DNA of 64,000 bases from Ruminiclostridium josui JCM 17888 (lineage in GTDB: Bacteria; Bacillota; Clostridia; Acetivibrionales; DSM-1351), in the NCBI RefSeq assembly GCF_000526495.1, contig NZ_JAGE01000001.1, forward strand, positions 248,001-312,000, written 5' to 3'. Both the position numbers and the translations under genes were made by a program. Numbering within the stretch: the first letter of the stretch is position 1; every line of letters begins with the position of its first letter. The notes beneath the pieces were generated by a model that was given only the letters and a program-made list of their open reading frames with translations, had not been told where the DNA came from and ran no database searches. Below, one piece after another: positions 46,792 to 54,798 of this stretch.

Positions 46792-47085
46792 CTACAGTAT
46801 AATGCATATTAATCCGCCACTGCCCTCATTTATTATTTTCTGCAAGGTTTCCTGAAGTTTGAGCTGTGCATCCTCCGGCATTCTAAAAAGCTTGTTCTGC
46901 AAGCCTTCATTTACGAGTTCATGGAGAGACTTTCCAAATATGTTTGACTCCCACAGCTTTCCGGTATCGTTTTCAAATTCTTTTAGCAAATATGAAACCA
47001 ACTCTTCTGACTGCTTTTCGGTTCCAACCAAAGGAGCAATTTCTGTTTCAATATCAGCCCTTATCATATGTATTGCATGGAGCAA
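46792..47085 (-). CDS. spoIVA: spoIVA, separated 3' part (C-terminal 91 residues)
   Basis: The frame contains the C-terminal domain of the spore coat morphogenetic ATPase SpoIVA: HMIRADIETEIAPLVGTEKQ, WESNIFGKSLHELV, and the family ending IINEGSGGLICIIL. True SpoIVA text starts at the IH codons (47073-47068). The few residues before them (MLHA, from a TTG) are not SpoIVA and come from the inserted element. There is no good ribosome site, so it is not an independent gene. The missing N-terminal 401 residues are at 53299-54567. Joining both at the shared core ATATGTATTG gives SAPSIH|MIRADIET in frame and 492 residues in total. This domain is needed for SpoIVA localisation, so spore coat assembly should require the rejoined gene. 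Confidence 0.92.
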   Translation of the reverse strand: MLHAIHMIRADIETEIAPLVGTEKQSEELVSYLLKEFENDTGKLWESNIFGKSLHELVNEGLQNKLFRMPEDAQLKLQETLQKIINEGSGGLICIIL

Positions 47086-48707
47086 ACAGAAGTACTTTTT
47101 CCATCACGTAATATTTTATAATCAAAGGGTTTTGTCAAAACTTTAAAGTACACTTTTAAATCTATTTCGTTTTTCTTATCTGTCTTATATACTTCAATCT
47201 TTTCTAACAATGACTCTATTAATTTATTGTCCAGTCCATCATCATAATTAATTTCCTTGGCAATTACTTTTCGTAGGGTTTCAACGGAATACGTTATTTC
47301 TTTATTTCTCAATTCCTCCTCATCTAGTTCTTTTAACCTTATACCTAGTCTATCAATATCCTCATTGAATCGATTGTTTCTTCTTTCAAATTCATCATCA
47401 GACAGTCTGCCGTTTATACTTAGCTCCAATAACTTGTCTTTCATTTTGAGTATTTGATTAATTTCAATTTTAATCTTTGAAATATCTTCTTTTATCTTAG
47501 ATTGAGTACCAAGACTTGAATACATGGTAACCATTTCATGTATAATTTCTGAACGGTTAACTATTATTTCATCGTATGCTTTCTTTATTATTATGTCCAA
47601 CTCGGATGTATATATAGATGGAGACGTACAACCTTCTTTCCCCTTCTCAACATACCTTTTGCACTGCCATACTTCCTTATTACCTGAGCTATAACGATAA
47701 AGTGTCCTGTAATAAGGAACATTATGTTCTTTACATATTATTTTTCCGCTGTATGGGTACTTGTTTTGGTAGCTGGTCTTGTCTTCTGCTGATTGTTTTT
47801 CACTTCTTTTTTTTAATATATAATTTGCCTTTTGCCATATTTCTTCAGATACTATGGGAGGAACCGATTCTTCATCTTTGTACATAACCCATTCTGTCTG
47901 GTCAAGATACTTTCTATCATGAAGCTTATAATCAATTTTGTGTGTTTTATTTCCGCAATAATATCCCATATATTTGGGATTTGTAAGTATGCTCTTAATA
48001 GTGGAAAAAGAAAAGGGATTACCGTTTTTATTTCTGATTCCCATATTGTCAAGCTTTGCACTTATTCCTCGTATTCCAATGTTTTGTGTGGCATACATAT
48101 CAAATATCAGTCTTACTATCTCAGCTTCCTTTTCATCAATTACAAGTTTGCCGGAATCTTTCCTATAGCCCCATATTTTATTATTTCCAAGTACTACTCC
48201 CTTTTCTATGGCTCTTTTAAAACCGAATTTAACTCTCTCAGATATTTTTCTAACCTCATCCTGAGCTATACTGGACATTATTGTCAATCGCAACTCTGCA
48301 TCCGGCATTAATGTATTTATATTGTCAGATTGAAAAAGAACACCTACTCCATAAGACAGCAGCTCCTGAGTATATTTTATACTGTCCAAGGTGTTTCTTG
48401 AAAATCTAGAAATCTCTTTTGTAATAATAAAATCAAATTTTTTTAATTTAGCATCCGAAACCATTTTGAGAAAAGAATCTCTTTTATTTACACTTGTGCC
48501 ACTTATACCTTCATCTATATATCCATCTACATATGTCCATTTATGATTTCTTTTAATAAAATCTGAATAATATTCTATCTGGTTTTTCAGTGAGTGAACC
48601 TGTTCATCCTTTTCAGTAGATACTCTTGCATAATAAGTAACTCTCAGATTTAAATCATATATTGTTTTACCCGTGTTCAGTTCATTTCTTATAGTGTACA
48701 AATCCAT
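47064..48707 (-). CDS. Large serine recombinase of the spoIVA element
   Basis: The 547-residue protein has an N-terminal resolvase domain with catalytic Ser30 in YYARVS and the motifs DEGISGTS, ITKEISRFSRN and LRLTIMSSIAQDEVRKISERV; a recombinase domain (about 170-300); a zinc ribbon (CKEHNVPYYR...WQCKRY...EGCTSP); and a coiled coil (about 400-470). This is the SpoIVCA/phiC31-type architecture. It should catalyse integration or excision at the ATATGTATTG cores. The ATG at 48707 has GAGGTG upstream. The last codons and the stop lie over the att core, with the final base of the stop inside spoIVA sequence, so the C-terminus differs between integrated and circular forms. Confidence 0.95.
   Translation of the reverse strand: MDLYTIRNELNTGKTIYDLNLRVTYYARVSTEKDEQVHSLKNQIEYYSDFIKRNHKWTYVDGYIDEGISGTSVNKRDSFLKMVSDAKLKKFDFIITKEISRFSRNTLDSIKYTQELLSYGVGVLFQSDNINTLMPDAELRLTIMSSIAQDEVRKISERVKFGFKRAIEKGVVLGNNKIWGYRKDSGKLVIDEKEAEIVRLIFDMYATQNIGIRGISAKLDNMGIRNKNGNPFSFSTIKSILTNPKYMGYYCGNKTHKIDYKLHDRKYLDQTEWVMYKDEESVPPIVSEEIWQKANYILKKRSEKQSAEDKTSYQNKYPYSGKIICKEHNVPYYRTLYRYSSGNKEVWQCKRYVEKGKEGCTSPSIYTSELDIIIKKAYDEIIVNRSEIIHEMVTMYSSLGTQSKIKEDISKIKIEINQILKMKDKLLELSINGRLSDDEFERRNNRFNEDIDRLGIRLKELDEEELRNKEITYSVETLRKVIAKEINYDDGLDNKLIESLLEKIEVYKTDKKNEIDLKVYFKVLTKPFDYKILRDGKSTSVCSMQYI
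47066..47093. other. Attachment site at the recombinase end (att core plus arm)
   Basis: The core ATATGTATTG (47066-47075) is followed inside the element, after seven bases, by the arm CAAACAGAAGT (47083-47093). The arm is the exact inverse of that at the other end. The core overlaps the last codons of the recombinase and the IH codons of spoIVA. Confidence 0.85.
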
Positions 48708-48724
48708 TTTACACACCTCGTTTA

Positions 48725-48774
48725 CACTTCTGTTTGTTACTTTTCATTATATTATCCGAATAATATTTGTCAAT
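48725..48774 (-). promoter_or_regulatory. Recombinase promoter overlapped by an att-arm copy
   Basis: On the minus strand TTGACA (48774-48769), a 16-bp spacer and TATAAT (48752-48747) form a near-consensus sigma-A promoter. Just downstream, at the expected start of transcription, is the 14-mer ACACTTCTGTTTGT (plus strand 48725-48738), identical to the arm at 53341-53354. Binding of recombinase here would block its own promoter, so autorepression is a reasonable inference. Confidence 0.75.
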
Positions 48775-48785
48775 TGTTTCCCAAC

Positions 48786-48810
48786 AAAAAAGCACCGATT
48801 TCCGGTGCAA
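48786..48810 (-). terminator. Terminator after the galactanase gene
   Basis: The stem GCACCG/CGGTGC is followed on the minus strand by TTTTTTG, 20 bases after the galactanase stop. It separates this gene from the recombinase promoter. Confidence 0.85.
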
Positions 48811-48829
48811 TTTTTGAATTTCATATATA

Positions 48830-50101
48830 CTAATTTAAAAACCCTTCCAATGCAATTGTTGGTTTACCATCTGAGTTCCAGCAGCCTTTAGTATAACCGT
48901 TCATTCCCGGGTATGACTCCGGCTCCCAATAGAATACACCCAACCCCTTATTTTTTGGTAAAGACTTAGTTTTGCTTATCATGTCAGCAATAAATGCTTT
49001 GCTTTCTGAAGCGTAGTCATATGACATTCCTATTTCACATATCATTATTTCTTTATTATACCTTGATACCATATCCTTCATGTTCGAGAGGCATTGGCTT
49101 GAAAGAGCAGTATAGTTATCTTTCTCAGGATATAGTGACATTCCGATAACATCGTATTTTGCTCCATTAGATTTAAGGCCGTCAAACATCCACCTGAATA
49201 ACGAATTATTAAATCCATTTGATAAATGTACAATTACCTTGGTTTGTGAACTTACGGCTTTTACAGCATCATATCCACAATTTACTAGCCATGCGAAGTT
49301 TTTCATATTATTTGATGCTTTTCCATCCTCCCACAGCATTCCATTGTTGGTTTCATTACCAACCTGCACCCACTCAGGTAATATTCCATTATTCTTAAGT
49401 TGAGTCATTACATCATATGTATAGTCATACGTCATCTTCATTAAACCATTGAAATCCAGTTTTGACCATGCTGCAGGTTTTGTCTGTTTTCCCGGATCTG
49501 CCCAGGAATCACTATAATGAAAATCAATCATAATCTTGAAACCAAGGTTTTTGGCTCTCTTTGCCAGTGCTATTGTTTCACTAGTACTACAGTGTCCGTT
49601 CCATTTATCTGTGGAAGGATTAACCCAGGTTCTTATTCTCACTGAGTTAATTCCATAGTCTTTTAATATTTGTAAACAATCCTTTTGAACGCCATTTTTG
49701 TTATAAAACTTATAACCATTTGCCTCCATCTGAGGGAGCCAGCTTATATCAGCACCTTTTGCAAACATACTCGTAGGAGTTTCTGCAGGAAATTTTTCTA
49801 TAATTCCTAAAATAAAACTTTTAGTTAAAGAAATATCCAACGAGTCTATGCTACCATCTCCATTTACATCAGCAGCACTTTTCCCGTTAGCATCAGGGAA
49901 GTCAGTTATATTTCCCAGTAAGTAGCTTTTTATTAGTGCATAATCAATTGAATTTACTTCTCCACTTCCGTCCACGTCACCATATAAAAACTGTGAAGTA
50001 GTTGCTGAAACCATATTTTTATTTATAAAAAAATTCCCCAATACTATCATCAAAACTAAAAGAGGGACAACAATCAATTTATTTAATTTAAAAGTGTTCA
50101 T
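48830..50101 (-). CDS. Cellulosomal endo-beta-1,4-galactanase (dockerin I - GH53)
   Basis: The 423-residue secreted enzyme has a signal or anchor helix (about 8-30), a type I dockerin near the N-terminus (two Ca2+-binding repeats, GDVDGSGEVNSIDYALIKSY at 41-60 and ADVNGDGSIDSLDISLTKSF at 77-96), and a GH53 domain from about residue 112. The catalytic glutamates are in VQVGNETNNGMLW (acid/base) and MICEIGMSY (nucleophile). It cuts beta-1,4-galactan of type I arabinogalactan and pectin side chains while bound to the cellulosome scaffold. An N-terminal dockerin is less common than a C-terminal one. The gene is cargo in the spoIVA element and has no functional link to sporulation. Confidence 0.92.
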   Translation of the reverse strand: MNTFKLNKLIVVPLLVLMIVLGNFFINKNMVSATTSQFLYGDVDGSGEVNSIDYALIKSYLLGNITDFPDANGKSAADVNGDGSIDSLDISLTKSFILGIIEKFPAETPTSMFAKGADISWLPQMEANGYKFYNKNGVQKDCLQILKDYGINSVRIRTWVNPSTDKWNGHCSTSETIALAKRAKNLGFKIMIDFHYSDSWADPGKQTKPAAWSKLDFNGLMKMTYDYTYDVMTQLKNNGILPEWVQVGNETNNGMLWEDGKASNNMKNFAWLVNCGYDAVKAVSSQTKVIVHLSNGFNNSLFRWMFDGLKSNGAKYDVIGMSLYPEKDNYTALSSQCLSNMKDMVSRYNKEIMICEIGMSYDYASESKAFIADMISKTKSLPKNKGLGVFYWEPESYPGMNGYTKGCWNSDGKPTIALEGFLN

Positions 50102-50203
50102 TTAAATTCCCCCAATATACTTCTTACTATTAGTGTAATATTAAGTATATTATACCAATTAATGCAATATATTTACAACCTTCATTATTTCTCTAATAAA
50201 AAA

Positions 50204-50275
50204 GGGGGTATCGCAAAACTTATTTTTTATCTTTTCTAACCGTACATGAGTACAATTGTATCAATGGAAGCTTGG
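50204..50275. repeat. Partial copy of the MITE-like repeat
   Basis: GGGGGTATCGCAAAAC and the following bases (TATCTTTTCTAACC, AATTGTATCAATGG, AAGCTTGG) align with the right end of the repeat at 3472-5083 read on its other strand. Only about 72 bp are alike and no second end is nearby, so this is a truncated copy. It lies inside the spoIVA element, in the gap between the galactanase and the 48-aa gene. Confidence 0.7.
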
Positions 50276-50300
50276 TTAAATATAAAGGCATTTCAATAAT

Positions 50301-50447
50301 TCATATTTTAACGCTATCTTTTAAAATTATTTCCTTTGCTTTTGTATACATTTCTTCGGTTATATACCCTTGTTCAAACAGTCGCTGGTTGATATGTAGT
50401 TTAACTTCCACTATCACAAGCTTCACCGCCTCTTCATTAAAAGCCAT
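50301..50447 (-). CDS. Small 48-aa protein in the spoIVA element
   Basis: ATG at 50447 is preceded by TTGGAGGT, a strong ribosome site. The product begins MAFNEEAVKLVIVEVKLHIN and goes on to RLFEQGYITEEMYTKAKEII. The second half has the short two-helix look of SHOCT-like domains (L-x-x-G-x-I-T/S-x-E-x-Y/F-x-x-x-K). I recall similar small proteins near clostridial serine recombinases. Excision by large serine recombinases normally needs a small directionality factor, so this is a candidate for that role; that is inference from size and place only. It could equally be a remnant gene of unknown function. Confidence 0.65.
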   Translation of the reverse strand: MAFNEEAVKLVIVEVKLHINQRLFEQGYITEEMYTKAKEIILKDSVKI

Positions 50448-50812
50448 TTTAACCTCCAATGTATTTTCTGTCTGTTATAATTTATTAGTTAAAAGCTTTT
50501 TTATGATTTAAATATAAAAACCGTTAAGTATTTCCGACAGCTACAACCATTTGTGACTAAAACAGATAAAAACTATTTTTATAGCATATATTTAAATGTT
50601 ATAATGTGTTATTATTGAAATGAATTATTTTTGAACAAAATACTCGAAAAAGGAATATAAACATTTTAAAACAGCATTTTTTTTACATTAAATGATATCA
50701 TTAATGAGAAAAACATAATATAATGTAAATTAGGATAGGTGTATTGGAAATTACTCATTGATTAAAATAAAAAATTTATTATCAAAGGATTCCGAGCTTG
50801 GAGGGAAATATA
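50448..50812. other. Non-coding gap between the 48-aa gene and agrC
   Basis: This 365-bp stretch separates two divergent genes, so it must hold the promoters of both. I found no gene, hairpin with a T run, or long repeat. It is very AT-rich and no promoter can be named with confidence. Confidence 0.5.
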
Positions 50813-52105
50813 GTGTTTATAATTGGTCAGCTGTTAATAAATACAGTTTTTGCAATGATAACTGCCTACATAACTTACTTATTTCTTAAAAATAATTTTA
50901 ATTTAAAAGTACAAATGAATTTTTTAGTTGCATTTATTGCTTGTAATGGTGTACTAAACGGAGTTTTGTCTACTTTATGGATGAGTGTACTTCCCATACC
51001 CAGTAATTTGCAATTTTTAAAATCTATTCTATTGACAATTCTCAATGTAATACTAATTAGGTACCTATTACGTGTTGAATGGCTAAAATCGGTATTATCC
51101 TTTTGTTTGATTATACTTTTTGTTGGAGTAGGAAATTTCACCGTACCATTGATTTTTTATTCTGTAGGTATTAATGCAACACCTGAGACAATAAATAATA
51201 ATCTATTTTTATTTTTTATTATGAATTTGATTATTTACTGCCTAGCTCTGGTTCTTATTAAATTTATACCTTATGCTAAATTAATCGGAAATATAAAAAA
51301 CCATACTCCCATAGGCATTTTACTTTTTATTACCATATTGATAATGGCCTCTTTTCTTGGAATGCATTTCGTAGTTCACTTTGACCCTGTCTCGTTTGTT
51401 ATTGTACTTATTTCATCTTTATCATATTTCTTCTTCTCGGCTTGGTATATAAACATCTATCATAAATACGAAATGAAGAAAGAAGAACAAAAACAGCAGG
51501 AATTCTATAATGAATCTCTTGCCAATACACTTCATGATTTAAGACGTATAAAACATGATCAAATGAATCACCTTTCTGTCTTATATGCTATGCACCAAAT
51601 GAACAAGTATGAAGCGGCTGCTTCATATCTAAAAGAAATAATAGGAACAAGTCAAAGTATAGGAAATACCGCTATATATAACATTAAGAATGCCGGACTA
51701 TTCGGATTAATATCCTCTAAAGTAAACTATGCCAATAGCCTTGGAATTAGTTTTAACTTGGATACCATCGGAGAAGTTGATTCTATTCCCAATATTAAAA
51801 TTTCTGATTTATGTGAAGTAATAGGCATTTATCTTGACAATGCATTGGAGGAGGTTTTAAGTAACGGAAAACTTAAGCTTGATATGAAAATTTTAAGTAC
51901 AGATGAGAGTCTTACAATTAGAATAGAAAACGAATGCGTTAAAACACCAAACACGAAAAGTTCATCAAAGGGAGCAGGACGTGGAAACGGGTTAGTCATT
52001 GCAAATAAAATACTTGCTTCATATAAAAATATTTCAAGTTCTACTATATTTGATGAAAAAAGAATGGTATTCGCACAAGTTATTAGAATAGCAAAAGAGG
52101 CTTAA
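50813..52105 (+). CDS. agrC: AgrC-type sensor histidine kinase
   Basis: The 430-residue kinase has an N-terminal polytopic membrane sensor with six or seven helices (residues 1-215) and a cytoplasmic HPK10/GHKL kinase part with the phospho-His in LRRIKHDQMNHLSVLYAM, then IYLDNALEEV and GAGRGNGLVIANKIL. This is the AgrC layout for sensing cyclic peptides. The GTG at 50813 is preferred because the GGAGGG site lies just upstream; an in-frame TTG at 50798 would overlap that site. It is convergent with agrBD. No LytTR-type response regulator (AgrA) lies in the window, so its partner must be elsewhere. Confidence 0.88.
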   Translation: MFIIGQLLINTVFAMITAYITYLFLKNNFNLKVQMNFLVAFIACNGVLNGVLSTLWMSVLPIPSNLQFLKSILLTILNVILIRYLLRVEWLKSVLSFCLIILFVGVGNFTVPLIFYSVGINATPETINNNLFLFFIMNLIIYCLALVLIKFIPYAKLIGNIKNHTPIGILLFITILIMASFLGMHFVVHFDPVSFVIVLISSLSYFFFSAWYINIYHKYEMKKEEQKQQEFYNESLANTLHDLRRIKHDQMNHLSVLYAMHQMNKYEAAASYLKEIIGTSQSIGNTAIYNIKNAGLFGLISSKVNYANSLGISFNLDTIGEVDSIPNIKISDLCEVIGIYLDNALEEVLSNGKLKLDMKILSTDESLTIRIENECVKTPNTKSSSKGAGRGNGLVIANKILASYKNISSSTIFDEKRMVFAQVIRIAKEA

Positions 52106-52119
52106 TAGCCTCTTTTTGC
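52091..52119. terminator. Bidirectional terminator between agrC and agrD
   Basis: GCAAAAGAGGCT and AGCCTCTTTTTGC form a near-perfect hairpin with A/T runs on both sides. It overlaps the agrC stop codon and lies next to the agrD stop. Confidence 0.8.
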
Positions 52120-52254
52120 TTACTTGAGTAATGATTTTGGGCATTCTTTTTGATAATAAGACCAAAACCAGCATGCACCTGCAGACGCAGTAGCTGCAAA
52201 TACTCCGATTAGAGATAGAACAGTTAGTACCAGTAATTTAATTTTACCCTTCAT
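52120..52254 (-). CDS. agrD: AgrD cyclic autoinducer peptide precursor
   Basis: The 44-residue peptide has the three AgrD parts: an amphipathic N-terminal leader (MKGKIKLLVLTVLSLIGVFA), a core around ACWFWSYYQ, and a charged recognition tail KECPKSLLK. By analogy with the C. perfringens precursor, where CLWFT is followed by a tail ending in PKSL, the mature signal here is probably a thiolactone ring formed by Cys28 with the residue four places on (CWFWS), perhaps with extra N-terminal residues. The ATG overlaps the agrB stop (ATGA), which shows coupling. The gene is too short for most gene finders. Confidence 0.9.
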   Translation of the reverse strand: MKGKIKLLVLTVLSLIGVFAATASAGACWFWSYYQKECPKSLLK

Positions 52255-52835
52255 GTAATTATCCCACCCCTCTTATTTTTTGTTAATCTATACACTATAG
52301 GTGTAATATTAACCGCTGATATTAGTGTAATTACTGAAATGATATTTGAGTAAATGTCAGGAACTATAAGTGTAATAACAAAGCATATTGCTAATAAAAT
52401 ACTACCCTTTATCCTTAACTCCTTTTTTCTTTTCTCAGTTACAATTGGTTTTGACGTCAGATCTGCAGGTGCGTATAAAAATGTCAAAATCCCTGATATA
52501 GCAAATAAAACTATATTTAAGAATTTAATATTAAGAATCTGTGCCAGATATACAGTACCGAATATAAATAAAAAGTGAGTGATTACACATCCAATTTGCG
52601 TTTTTGCATGTACTCCTCCTAAGTAGGATTTGTTTAATGAGAAAACTATTACAGCAACTACCGCATACTTCAATTGTCCCAGAAATAAAGCTGTAAGTAA
52701 CACTGCAAGTAATTTCAAACCATCTGCAAAAGCCATATACAAACCATAATCAATTTGCTCAGCTTTTTCTTCTGAGATTCCCGGAATATTTAAAACAATC
52801 TCATTAGTGATTTTCTTTGTTATTTCCTCTAGCAC
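52251..52835 (-). CDS. agrB: AgrB peptide-processing membrane protease
   Basis: The 194-residue membrane protein has about five helices and the AgrB catalytic pair His76 and Cys83 in YLGGVHAKTQIGC, with the same seven-residue spacing as in Staphylococcus AgrB. It cuts the C-terminal tail of AgrD and closes the thiolactone ring, and helps export. The start is GTG at 52835 after GGTGGTG. It overlaps agrD by four bases. The pair agrBD is inside the spoIVA element and would be lost with it on excision. Confidence 0.93.
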   Translation of the reverse strand: MLEEITKKITNEIVLNIPGISEEKAEQIDYGLYMAFADGLKLLAVLLTALFLGQLKYAVVAVIVFSLNKSYLGGVHAKTQIGCVITHFLFIFGTVYLAQILNIKFLNIVLFAISGILTFLYAPADLTSKPIVTEKRKKELRIKGSILLAICFVITLIVPDIYSNIISVITLISAVNITPIVYRLTKNKRGGIIT

Positions 52836-53298
52836 CCAATCACCACCACTTACATTTTACACCATTATATACTATTTTTCTTTCTTTGTCGATATTTTTT
52901 TCCCAATATTGATATGCAATACCACTCATTATGACAAAGAGCATATATTCCATAATATTAAAATTAAGTGCCAAATGCTACATTTATTTGCTTATGCATC
53001 GTATAATTTTTTATAACCATGCCATAATTTGTCCTAAATTATACATATTTCTTTCTACTTCTTCATCATTAAGCTGTATTCTAATCCTTTTGCTACTGTA
53101 TATCAATTTTATTTTTTTTGCATTTAATCTATTTTGTTACTTTTTTATAATTAAGTGTATTTAAAACCATGCTACAATCTGAAATTGATTAAGTCAAGCT
53201 ACATTTATTCGCGCACAAAATTACAGCCTGCAAAGACTCTTTTTTGCAGGCTGTATGCTTATGAAACCCCTATAAGAATTTGAACATTAAATTTAAAA
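52836..53298. other. AT-rich stretch between agrB and the spoIVA 5' part
   Basis: This stretch holds the agrB promoter region and a hairpin, ACAGCCTGCAAA / TTTGCAGGCTGT (53222-53256), about 45 bp after the end of the spoIVA 5' frame. On the minus strand it is followed by a short T run, so it may stop spoIVA transcription inside the element. A 31-codon frame from a TTG at 53106 to 53011 (minus), with the text IRIQLNDEEVERNMYNLGQI, looks protein-like but has no ribosome site; it may be a gene remnant. Confidence 0.5.
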
Positions 53299-54567
53299 TC
53301 ACGCGGTTTTGTTGTTCCTGTACCTCCTCTTGTTAAGATTACACTTCTGTTTGTACCTAACAATATGTATTGAAGGAGCACTTGCTCTAAGTTTTACCCC
53401 AAACTTGTTACCCTGCTTGATAATCTCAGGTTCTTCCAACGTGAGTTCTTCCATATGCGGTGAGACCATACCATACCCCTTAACCTTAACTTCATGTAAG
53501 GCATATTCTACTCTGTCATATTCCTTCTTTATTCTTGCAAGATCTTTTATAAGACTTATAAGTTTATGCTCACCCTCTATTTCTATTCCTGACTCTTCAC
53601 TTAAAATCTTATACAAAAGTCCATCAGCAGCCGATAAATCGATTAATACAGTGCCTTCTCCTAGACTTACCTTATCTATAGCAGCCCTTTTGACAAATTC
53701 ATATTGTTCAAAAGAAGGCAGAGCGTCCTTTATTGCACGTATTTTCGTAGCTGCTTTAAAAGTATTCCTGATTGAGTCAATAATATCTGCTTTTAGCCAA
53801 TGAGAATCATCCAAAGCTTCCACCCATCTCGGTATATTTATACCTATTTCACAGATAGGGAACTCGTGCAGAACCTTTTCCATAATCGTATCAACATCAT
53901 CAATTCTCATCTGCAGACAATCCATTGCAATTACGGTTACACCGTACTTTTGCTCCAACTCGTCACGCAATTTCAGTGTCTCTGAATCCCTGGGATTTGT
54001 TGAATTAATAATCACTACAAAAGGTTTATTAATAGCCTTTAGCTCTGTTATTACTCTTCTTTCAGCTTCAACATAATCCTCTCTTGGAATTTCAGAAATT
54101 GAGCCGTCTGTTGTGATTACAATACCTATGGTTGAATGTTCATTGATTACTTTCTTAGTACCAAGCTCAGCTGCTTCCTCAAAAGGTATCTGACGATCAA
54201 ACCACGGTGTTGAAACCATTCTCGGTGCATCATTCTCCAAATGTCCCATTGCACCTTTTACCATGTAACCCACACAGTCAATCATTCTTACTTTAATCTG
54301 CACATTTTCGTCAATAACAACTTCTACTGCTTCATTGGGGATAAATTTAGGTTCAGTGGTCATTATAGTTCTTCCGGATGCACTTTGCGGAAGTTCATCT
54401 ATTGCCCTCTCTTTTTGATATGTGTTCTCTATATTTGGGATAACCAACAATTCCATGAACCTTTTAATAAAAGTTGATTTTCCCGTTCTTACAGGTCCCA
54501 CAATTCCTATGTAAATATCCCCTTGAGTTCTTTCAGCTATTTGCTGGTATATGTTGAATTTATCCAC
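53299..54567 (-). CDS. spoIVA: spoIVA, separated 5' part (residues 1-401 plus foreign tail)
   Basis: SpoIVA is the ATPase that polymerises on the forespore surface to form the basement layer of the spore coat. This part starts at GTG 54567 (GGGAGGG upstream) and has the Walker A-type motif GPVRTGKST (residues 24-32), PQSASGRTIMTTEPKF, VDCVGY-like MIDCVGYMVKG and VITTDGSISEI. True homology ends at SAPSIH (residue 401). The last 21 residues (from IVRYKQ on) are read from the inserted element and are not SpoIVA. In this form the protein lacks its C-terminal domain. The remaining 91 residues are at 46792-47073. Rejoined length is 492. A sigma-E-type promoter upstream is expected, but I could place only weak matches. 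Confidence 0.93.
   Translation of the reverse strand: MDKFNIYQQIAERTQGDIYIGIVGPVRTGKSTFIKRFMELLVIPNIENTYQKERAIDELPQSASGRTIMTTEPKFIPNEAVEVVIDENVQIKVRMIDCVGYMVKGAMGHLENDAPRMVSTPWFDRQIPFEEAAELGTKKVINEHSTIGIVITTDGSISEIPREDYVEAERRVITELKAINKPFVVIINSTNPRDSETLKLRDELEQKYGVTVIAMDCLQMRIDDVDTIMEKVLHEFPICEIGINIPRWVEALDDSHWLKADIIDSIRNTFKAATKIRAIKDALPSFEQYEFVKRAAIDKVSLGEGTVLIDLSAADGLLYKILSEESGIEIEGEHKLISLIKDLARIKKEYDRVEYALHEVKVKGYGMVSPHMEELTLEEPEIIKQGNKFGVKLRASAPSIHIVRYKQKCNLNKRRYRNNKTA
53343..53372. other. Attachment site at the agrB end (att core plus arm)
   Basis: The core ATATGTATTG (53363-53372) is preceded inside the element, after nine bases, by the arm ACTTCTGTTTG (53343-53353), the exact inverse of the arm at the other end. 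With both ends joined, the two 11-bp arms flank 26 bp, giving a 48-bp site centred on the core, a size typical of attP sites of large serine recombinases. Confidence 0.85.
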
Positions 54568-54798
54568 CTTTAGAACCCTCCCCTATATTGTTACACGTCC
54601 CGTTACGGACTATGTATATTGTCTTTTTCAATATTAAATATATGTCCGAAAACAGTTATTATTACAAAAAAATAAATTTATTGAAAAATGTGTTTATATA
54701 CTGAAAACGTTGGGACGACTGATGTAAATCACGACAACCTATTTTCACAAGACGGGAATTGACATTAACAAACATTCCACGATATAATTTTTTTATAT

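Follow-up and report, generated by a model that had tools for sequence, protein, structure and literature searches.

In this study, we analysed a stretch of 64,000 nucleotides from Ruminiclostridium josui JCM 17888 (hereafter the window) and found that spoIVA is divided there by a 6.3-kb element bordered by a direct repeat, at which removal of the element would rebuild the gene in frame. SpoIVA is the foundation of the spore coat. The element is very probably a skin-type gene-intervening element, which would be excised by its own recombinase to rebuild spoIVA in the mother cell, and sporulation in these spore formers probably depends on a programmed DNA deletion. Genomes, loci and contigs are cited, where needed, by our handles (G, L and C numbers), and the features of the window are collected in Table 1.

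Structure of the divided spoIVA gene

The gene lies on the minus strand from position 54567, and its family match ends after about residue 401. The SpoIVA profile TIGR02836 (492 positions) is matched at positions 1-405 by the open reading frame (ORF) 53299-54567(-) and at positions 399-492 by ORF 46792-47085(-), with concordant Pfam matches, which bears out the break and the resumption of homology claimed in a preliminary description of this DNA. The ORF of the 5' piece continues to 53299 through foreign codons; the TTG start of the 3' ORF is a convention of the tool only, and the sole start-like codon seen by eye at the joint is the Met of an ATGA overlap. The same description had announced a direct repeat at both break points, a join keeping the frame over 401+91=492 residues and a large serine recombinase at one element end, and all of these were recovered. 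The repeat ATATGTATTG occurs in exactly two copies in the window, at 47066-47075 and 53363-53372, which are the two break points; joining there (6,297 bp removed) yields an uninterrupted SpoIVA of 492 residues, also the length of the TIGR02836 profile; and the recombinase carries the domains listed in Table 1. GC content is 0.31 in the element vs 0.35 outside.

Taken alone, the 10-bp repeat is weak evidence, with 0.41 matches expected by chance and at least two copies anywhere in 6 of 100 shuffles. It is convincing because it is located at both breaks, is conserved in four further orthologous elements and is adjoined by inverted arms. The inverted pair ACTTCTGTTTG/CAAACAGAAGT, just within both element ends, constitutes a second, independent signature, and in the predicted circle these arms would be expected to flank the core, as in the attachment site (att) of a free serine-integrase element, attP. 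The search for a second, intact spoIVA, set beforehand as the refuting check, was negative: no second copy was found in the genome (assembly of two contigs, completeness 100).

Interrupted and intact forms in the genus

Relatives were compared for intact and interrupted forms, as had been suggested at the outset, and both occur. spoIVA is in two pieces at one codon in six of the 11 genus genomes (G000, the window; G002, which we take to be R. cellulolyticum H10; G005; G006, R. papyrosolvens C7; G007; and G009, R. sufflavum DSM 19573) and is whole in the other five (G001, G003, G004, G008 and G010). The recombinase (E<=1e-100) is present in 6/6 split and 0/5 intact genomes. Five of the elements (window, G002, G005, G006 and G007) are orthologous and 5.4-6.3 kb long, and that of G009 measures 39.4 kb with different cargo. 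The core repeat CAATACATAT is identical at both junctions in all five short elements, the arms being near-identical; G009 has a shorter core, ATACATAT, with the same arms. Among the intact genomes, CAATACATAT is present as a single copy in G001 and G010 and in a variant form in G003, G004 and G008. A crossover dinucleotide sought from att variation was dropped, since the elements disagree by eye.

Selection was estimated on the five short-element species, leaving out G009. In the 3' piece, each of the 10 species pairs, which are not independent, differs by 11-32 synonymous vs 0-2 non-synonymous changes; judged from such counts, purifying selection acts strongly on this cut-off piece, and the 5' piece is under purifying selection as well. 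The ratio of non-synonymous to synonymous divergence (dN/dS) is 0.06 for the recombinase, 0.08 for a small protein of the element, 0.15 for AgrB, 0.08 for AgrD, 0.09 for the sensor kinase and 0.09 for the glycosyl hydrolase GH53 (four species for GH53, five for the others). Mean dS is 0.16-0.63 for the element genes vs 0.18-0.56 per pair for the spoIVA 5' piece, a similarity that fits an element inherited together with the chromosome. It would scarcely be credible that spoIVA is plainly inactivated and these lineages no longer sporulate. The integrated form indeed cannot encode the whole protein, and SpoIVA is essential for resistant spores in the available text of PMC11076785, yet purifying selection is seen on both spoIVA pieces, the recombinase and the small protein, and the spoIVA promoter block is conserved throughout the genus (Table 1).

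A second sporulation gene is divided in the genus as well. The sigK profile is matched in two pieces in nine of the 11 genomes and in one piece in G008, and G003 alone has a whole match above the family cut-off; in-frame stops fall within the matched stretch in G001, G004 and G008. The two pieces of G000 (C1:3338635-3338973 and 3355340-3355696, profile positions 4-118 and 109-226) are 16.4 kb apart. By these matches, the window's organism probably needs two excisions, of spoIVA and of sigK.

Divided spoIVA genes beyond the genus

An even sample of the class comprised 393 genomes, 288 of them with a SpoIVA match, and 12 multi-match genomes were examined among the matches listed; with that same scope, ten of the 12 have the split at about residues 400-412 (profile ends 399-419). 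An element end is seen in seven of the ten: the recombinase directly precedes the 3' piece in G072, G311, G293, G205 and G367, a recombinase stump remains in G132, and in G353 both junctions show matching arms and the recombinase lies on another contig. In G016 (C44/C175), G322 (C73/C33) and G415 (C26/C52), contig ends meet at the spoIVA att position and overlap there by ~10 bp in G016 and G322 and by ~60 bp in G415. No recombinase at E<=1e-40 was found in these three assemblies, which were excluded from the shown splits; their branch points could reflect integrated and empty forms mixed in the sequenced DNA, without being proof of it. With the six genus members included, at least 16 of the 288 sampled genomes are split here, at least 13 of them with element evidence. 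G064 (intact), G157 (broken at residue 107, one contig) and G278 (three SpoIVA matches, two listed as full-length) were kept outside the split counts, as were G023, G034 and G057 from an order-level search of 58 genomes (56 with a match). In G023 there is a break at residue 150 with one stop, in G057 three pieces lie on two contigs, and G034 has, besides a whole spoIVA, an additional SpoIVA 408-492 match on a different contig (C87:4854-5108).

A recombinase scan of named genomes gave 68 loci, ten with a SpoIVA match, of which two belong to genus members. The remaining eight, together with L046, where a short SpoIVA stub was read by eye, added nine genomes (G428-G436), including Marasmitruncus massiliensis, Pseudoflavonifractor sp. 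Marseille-P3106 and metagenome-assembled genomes (MAGs) of Lawsonibacter (only the 3' piece found), Anaerotruncus and Defluviitaleaceae. In total, at least 22 genomes are split: 19 at the window site (site 1), among them G430, which is split at a second site too, two at that second site only (G205 and G367), and one elsewhere (G434). Outside the genus, at least 16 genomes have their split spoIVA next to a related recombinase or to half-sites of it, and in 13 of these the split is at the window site. Galperin et al. 2012 (PMC3533761) placed spoIVA of C. cellulolyticum H10 among the sporulation genes omitted from annotation, no element being named in the available text, and this looks like an earlier, unexplained sighting of the split. 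The omission might also be taken as a sign of an assembly or sequencing artefact; the same kind of split in six genus assemblies and in these others makes that next to impossible, independent assemblies refuting it.

Automatic joining of 13 pairs in other genomes (G428, G429, G430 and G434 left out) gave the proper frame and ending in 10/13 and used a wrong core in three, where G436 was restored by a hand join, G293 was correct through the joint with its contig ending within the gene, and no proper join was obtained for G433. Joined G072 and G353 are full length from the Walker motif on. Several loci depart from the arrangement in the window. The element of G428 is inverted, its recombinase lying on the opposite strand and directly adjoining the 5' piece. 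In G205 and G367, the split falls some ten codons further, at TEV (site 2), and the recombinase frame continues into the SpoIVA C-terminus as a single ORF of 638 and 641 residues, respectively. In G430 (C4:25034-115857; L046), a site-1 element, ~12 SpoIVA codons and a site-2 element follow one another on one contig, the site-2 recombinase being fused to the SpoIVA C-terminus (read from fetched stretches of the contig), and this spoIVA appears to be cut by two tandem elements. In G434 (C20:236830-490534; L100), 252 kb of one scaffold separate two same-strand pieces that meet near residue 145-150, and a recombinase stands at the 3' piece; as a 252-kb split this is only a lead.

The divided gene might also work unexcised, the N and C fragments being two assembling polypeptides and the latter made by translational coupling at the ATGA overlap. 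This overlap is present in the window and the four orthologous elements, and recombinase and SpoIVA C-terminus share one open frame in G205, G367, G433 and G430, as such an arrangement might have it. The split nevertheless removes the C-terminal region implicated in SpoVM binding (PMC11076785, available text), gives the N fragment a foreign tail and would leave the 3' piece to a vegetative-type promoter, and we regard working fragments as quite improbable.

Putative promoter and predicted C-terminal exchange of the recombinase

A sigma-A-type promoter match upstream of the recombinase is found in 4/5 short elements, and a half-site copy between the -10 box and the start likewise in 4/5; by eye, related motifs stand at that position in L041, L042, L043 and L044. 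In the window, this copy repeats the element end exactly over 16 nt, which suggests a possible autoregulatory site, through which the recombinase may repress itself. Upstream of 20 recombinases, the sigma-A pattern occurs in 11, including four orthologues from a single element (0.54 expected from simple shuffles), and the sigma-E pattern in none. In the G002 element (L030), the recombinase lies closely behind GH53.

The integrated recombinase terminates at the att core, with QYI-stop. Across the junction of the predicted circle, its frame gains in all five species a tail of 37 codons counted from the core (QYI + 34), which ends in ...TNRSV..TRGGTGTTKPHDFKFNVQILIGVS or near it; a related tail is found in G009 and L043, and those of L045, G431 and G432 are less alike. 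The tail aligns to the C-terminus of four unsplit members of the recombinase clade (TRGGNTR..K.YDL.FNY), and the half-site arms encode TSVC and NRSV. Across the five species, pN/pS in the tail is 0.33 in the recombinase frame, which is open and ends at an identical stop in 5/5; the other two frames give 1.40 and 0.71. Since attP lies inside the recombinase ORF, integration swaps the C-terminus of the enzyme. Some constraint on the tail suggests that the circle form matters, via re-integration or transfer.

A candidate directionality factor

The element also encodes a 48-aa protein, identical over 47 residues in G006 and G007 (100%) and 87% identical in G002. It is modelled with confidence (pLDDT 91.9) as a hairpin of two helices. 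Pfam gave only sub-threshold SHOCT and GvpG matches. A profile built from the window, G002, L042, L046 and L047, which match by construction, found relatives in most of the site-1 elements (window type, L041, L042, L043, L045, L046, L047, L048, G072, G293 and G311) and in L049, mostly sitting just upstream of the recombinase; weaker matches came from L044, L102, L133 and the site-2 locus of G205. A sigma-E-like pattern precedes 4 of 15 small genes (0.275 expected from simple shuffles), two of the four being close kin. By size and position, the 48-aa protein is a candidate recombination directionality factor.

Cargo and type of the element

The remaining genes comprise an agr-like group and a cellulosomal enzyme (Table 1). 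The AgrD-like peptide is identical in 3/5 species, the GHKL kinase gene is divergent to agrB and the AgrD-like peptide gene, and no response regulator was found among the element ORFs scanned. A special link to agr quorum sensing was rejected: each of the 11 genus genomes has 3-6 AgrB genes, whether spoIVA is interrupted or intact, and none of those of G009 lies within its element. Given this distribution, the agr cassette is treated as cargo.

The element lies within a sporulation coding sequence, restores the frame on removal, has its own site-specific recombinase and shows a direct repeat at both junctions with one copy in the rebuilt gene, as expected of the skin type. No phage structural or lysis gene, which a temperate prophage would have, was found by Pfam among five ORFs of the window element (the recombinase, GH53-dockerin, the sensor kinase, AgrB and the small protein, the last without a Pfam match); a PHROGs scan covered the recombinase and two small proteins. 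In the 39.4-kb element of G009, read by eye only, no structural gene was recognised.

Table 1. Features of the spoIVA locus, with positions in the window.
Feature	Position	Strand	Remarks
spoIVA 5' piece	53363..54567	-	codons 1 to ~402: ATPase domain and nearly whole middle domain
spoIVA 3' piece	46792..47075	-	middle-domain end and C-terminal domain, up to residue 492
spoIVA-intervening element (putative)	47066..53362	.	6,297 bp; interrupts spoIVA after residue 401
att core copy, 5' piece	53363..53372	-	CAATACATAT on gene strand
att core copy, 3' piece	47066..47075	-	CAATACATAT; its last base begins recombinase stop TGA, overlapping 3'-piece Met codon
Half-site arm	53343..53353	+	ACTTCTGTTTG; inside element beside 5' piece; inverted pair; one base differs in G005
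Inverted half-site arm	47083..47093	+	CAAACAGAAGT; inside element beside 3' piece
Sigma-E-like spoIVA promoter	54609..54636	-	TAATATT-15 nt-CATAGT; block conserved in 11/11 genus genomes; sigma-E assignment by eye
Large serine recombinase	47064..48716	-	550 aa integrated form; likely ATG start 48707; Resolvase, Recombinase and Zn_ribbon domains
Sigma-A-type promoter-like sequence	48746..48773	-	TTGACA-16 nt-TATAAT; upstream of recombinase
Exact copy (16 nt) of element-end half-site	48722..48737	-	TTACACTTCTGTTTGT on +; between -10 box and recombinase start
Recombinase C-terminal tail	53259..53372	-	37 codons from core and stop; in frame only in predicted circle
48-aa helical-hairpin protein, candidate recombination directionality factor	50301..50447	-	conserved in 5/5 short elements
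AgrB-type peptide processing protein (cargo)	52251..52835	-	
44-aa AgrD-like precursor peptide (cargo)	52120..52254	-	named by eye; conserved 5/5; no significant Pfam match
GHKL-domain sensor kinase, AgrC-like by position (cargo)	50798..52105	+	Pfam; conserved 5/5
Glycosyl hydrolase family 53 with dockerin I (cargo)	48830..50101	-	absent in G005

Phylogeny of the recombinases

A quick maximum-likelihood tree was built from 83 recombinases, with 14 fragments, duplicates and near-copies left out. It placed 17 of 18 site-1 enzymes (L048, the G353 enzyme, being labelled site 1 from the arms in its genome) in one clade of 19 rows (SH-aLRT 96), the other two rows being L133, from a virus contig, and L049, from a Defluviitaleaceae genome whose locus has no SpoIVA match. 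The three site-2 enzymes form a separate clade (100). In the sister group of 47 rows (mostly L052-L101; Ruminococcus and other Clostridia), none of the tested loci, which did not include rows from virus contigs and G293 (L145), shows a SpoIVA match, and the group gave one weak match to the small protein (L055, E 0.002). Several branches are long, so deep placement is unsure. A close phage source was rejected, the 437 phage records that match the recombinase all being below 60% identity. L133 (IMG/VR contig, 124 kb) encodes a recombinase of 60% identity and, close to the contig end, a small-protein relative; its reading as a phage inserted in spoIVA was dropped, as two end stretches have no SpoIVA match. 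One pattern scan of virus contigs with the exact window arms returned no free attP.

These relationships bear on the possibility that spoIVA is a mere attachment site for mobile elements or phages, with excision occasional and independent of sporulation, so that element-free cells alone sporulate well. The clade keeps its site preference despite cargo and size that differ from 5.2 to 39.4 kb, and includes the virus-contig relative L133; some constraint on the circle-only tail suggests that circles and re-integration matter; and in C. botulinum a fraction of the cells has yin excised at every time point (PMC10747680, available text). Against this, one short element has been kept in five species with synonymous divergence like that of spoIVA, and the need for spoIVA in resistant spores (PMC11076785, available text) favours reliable excision at each sporulation. 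We regard the attachment-site explanation as unlikely.

Proposed mechanism

If the spoIVA element is a skin-type element, the recombinase would be present in growing cells, yet the integrated state would be maintained. During sporulation, with the small protein acting as directionality factor, the recombinase would join the two junction sites, attL and attR, and the element would be released as a circle. spoIVA, rebuilt in frame, would then be read from its sigma-E promoter in time for the coat foundation; its mother-cell expression is taken from the accessible part of the literature. The forespore chromosome would retain the element, which would thus be inherited. Excision would also convert the 550-residue enzyme ending in QYI to a form with 34 extra residues, and this longer circle enzyme could favour integration, helping to set direction.

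Several observations weigh against this proposal or parts of it. Excision is a prediction from sequence. The sigma-A pattern is absent from 9/20 recombinases, including that of G002 (L030), which has neither the sigma-A promoter nor the half-site copy of the other four short elements. The circle-only tail, at pN/pS 0.33, is less constrained than the remainder of the enzyme (dN/dS 0.06) and is nearly absent in G430; modelled on its own by AlphaFold, the recombinase gave no usable structure. No small-protein relative was detected in L087, L100, the site-2 loci of G367 and G430, or L051, where little sequence was available upstream, and a sigma-E promoter for the window's 48-aa gene was sought by eye and by pattern and rejected. 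In addition, the site-1 enzyme L087 falls outside the clade, on a long branch. The broader reading goes further: a developmental switch widespread in Clostridia, with a dedicated recombinase clade and a small partner, an enzyme that latches itself between a short form for excision and a long form for integration, and a genus that needs both spoIVA and sigK excisions. We put it forward tentatively, at somewhat less than an even chance.

Comparison with known systems

Sporulation intervening elements have been described in sigK, spsM, spoVFB, spoVR, gerE and yabG, as far as the available text of the sources goes; spoIVA as a target was not found in the open-access literature searched, outside which most subscription papers and preprints lie. 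Like the spoIVA element, skin in sigK (B. subtilis SpoIVCA; C. difficile CD1231/CD1234) splits a mother-cell gene in frame and involves a large serine recombinase. The likeness is extended, in C. difficile, by a sigma-A recombinase promoter, as reported for CD1231, and a small separate factor, for which we have a candidate: there, CD1231 depends on sigma-A, and sigma-E and SpoIIID control CD1234, a factor of 72 aa (PMC5025042, available text). Compared with skin, likened here by description to SpoIVCA, CD1231 and CD1234, the target is spoIVA, the candidate factor is a ~50-aa helical hairpin, and the cargo consists of agr-like genes and a cellulosomal enzyme, with no phage gene recognised. A further feature of the spoIVA element is its attP inside the recombinase ORF.

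According to the accessible descriptions, gin in gerE (B. cereus), vfbin in spoVFB (B. weihenstephanensis) and vrin in spoVR (Geobacillus) also split sporulation genes other than sigK, and gin is non-prophage, as is the spoIVA element; they differ in target genes and in their Bacilli hosts. Closer in host is yin in yabG (C. botulinum V73), which shares a clostridial sporulation gene, a direct repeat with inverted repeats and a small factor, the putative one being 53 aa (PMC10747680, available text), although yin is reported as unique to one strain, unlike the spoIVA split. SP-beta in spsM (SprA/SprB) likewise combines a large serine integrase with a small factor and has its gene rebuilt at sporulation, whereas it is an active large prophage in a spore-polysaccharide gene. 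Set against the available text of these descriptions, the kind of element is already known (skin, vfbin, vrin, gin and yin), the target gene spoIVA is new, and attP within the recombinase frame and the apparent double tandem cut of spoIVA in one genome go beyond what they report.

If the proposal is true, annotation may label sporulation-competent genomes as spoIVA-defective, and DNA rearrangement as part of the programme could take place in the sigma-E stage, ahead of the sigK (skin) step. The exchange of the C-terminus would be a way to direct a serine integrase that is new, as far as known, and useful to genome engineers. Furthermore, one codon repeatedly occupied by one recombinase clade would be a natural experiment in how mobile DNA becomes a developmental switch.

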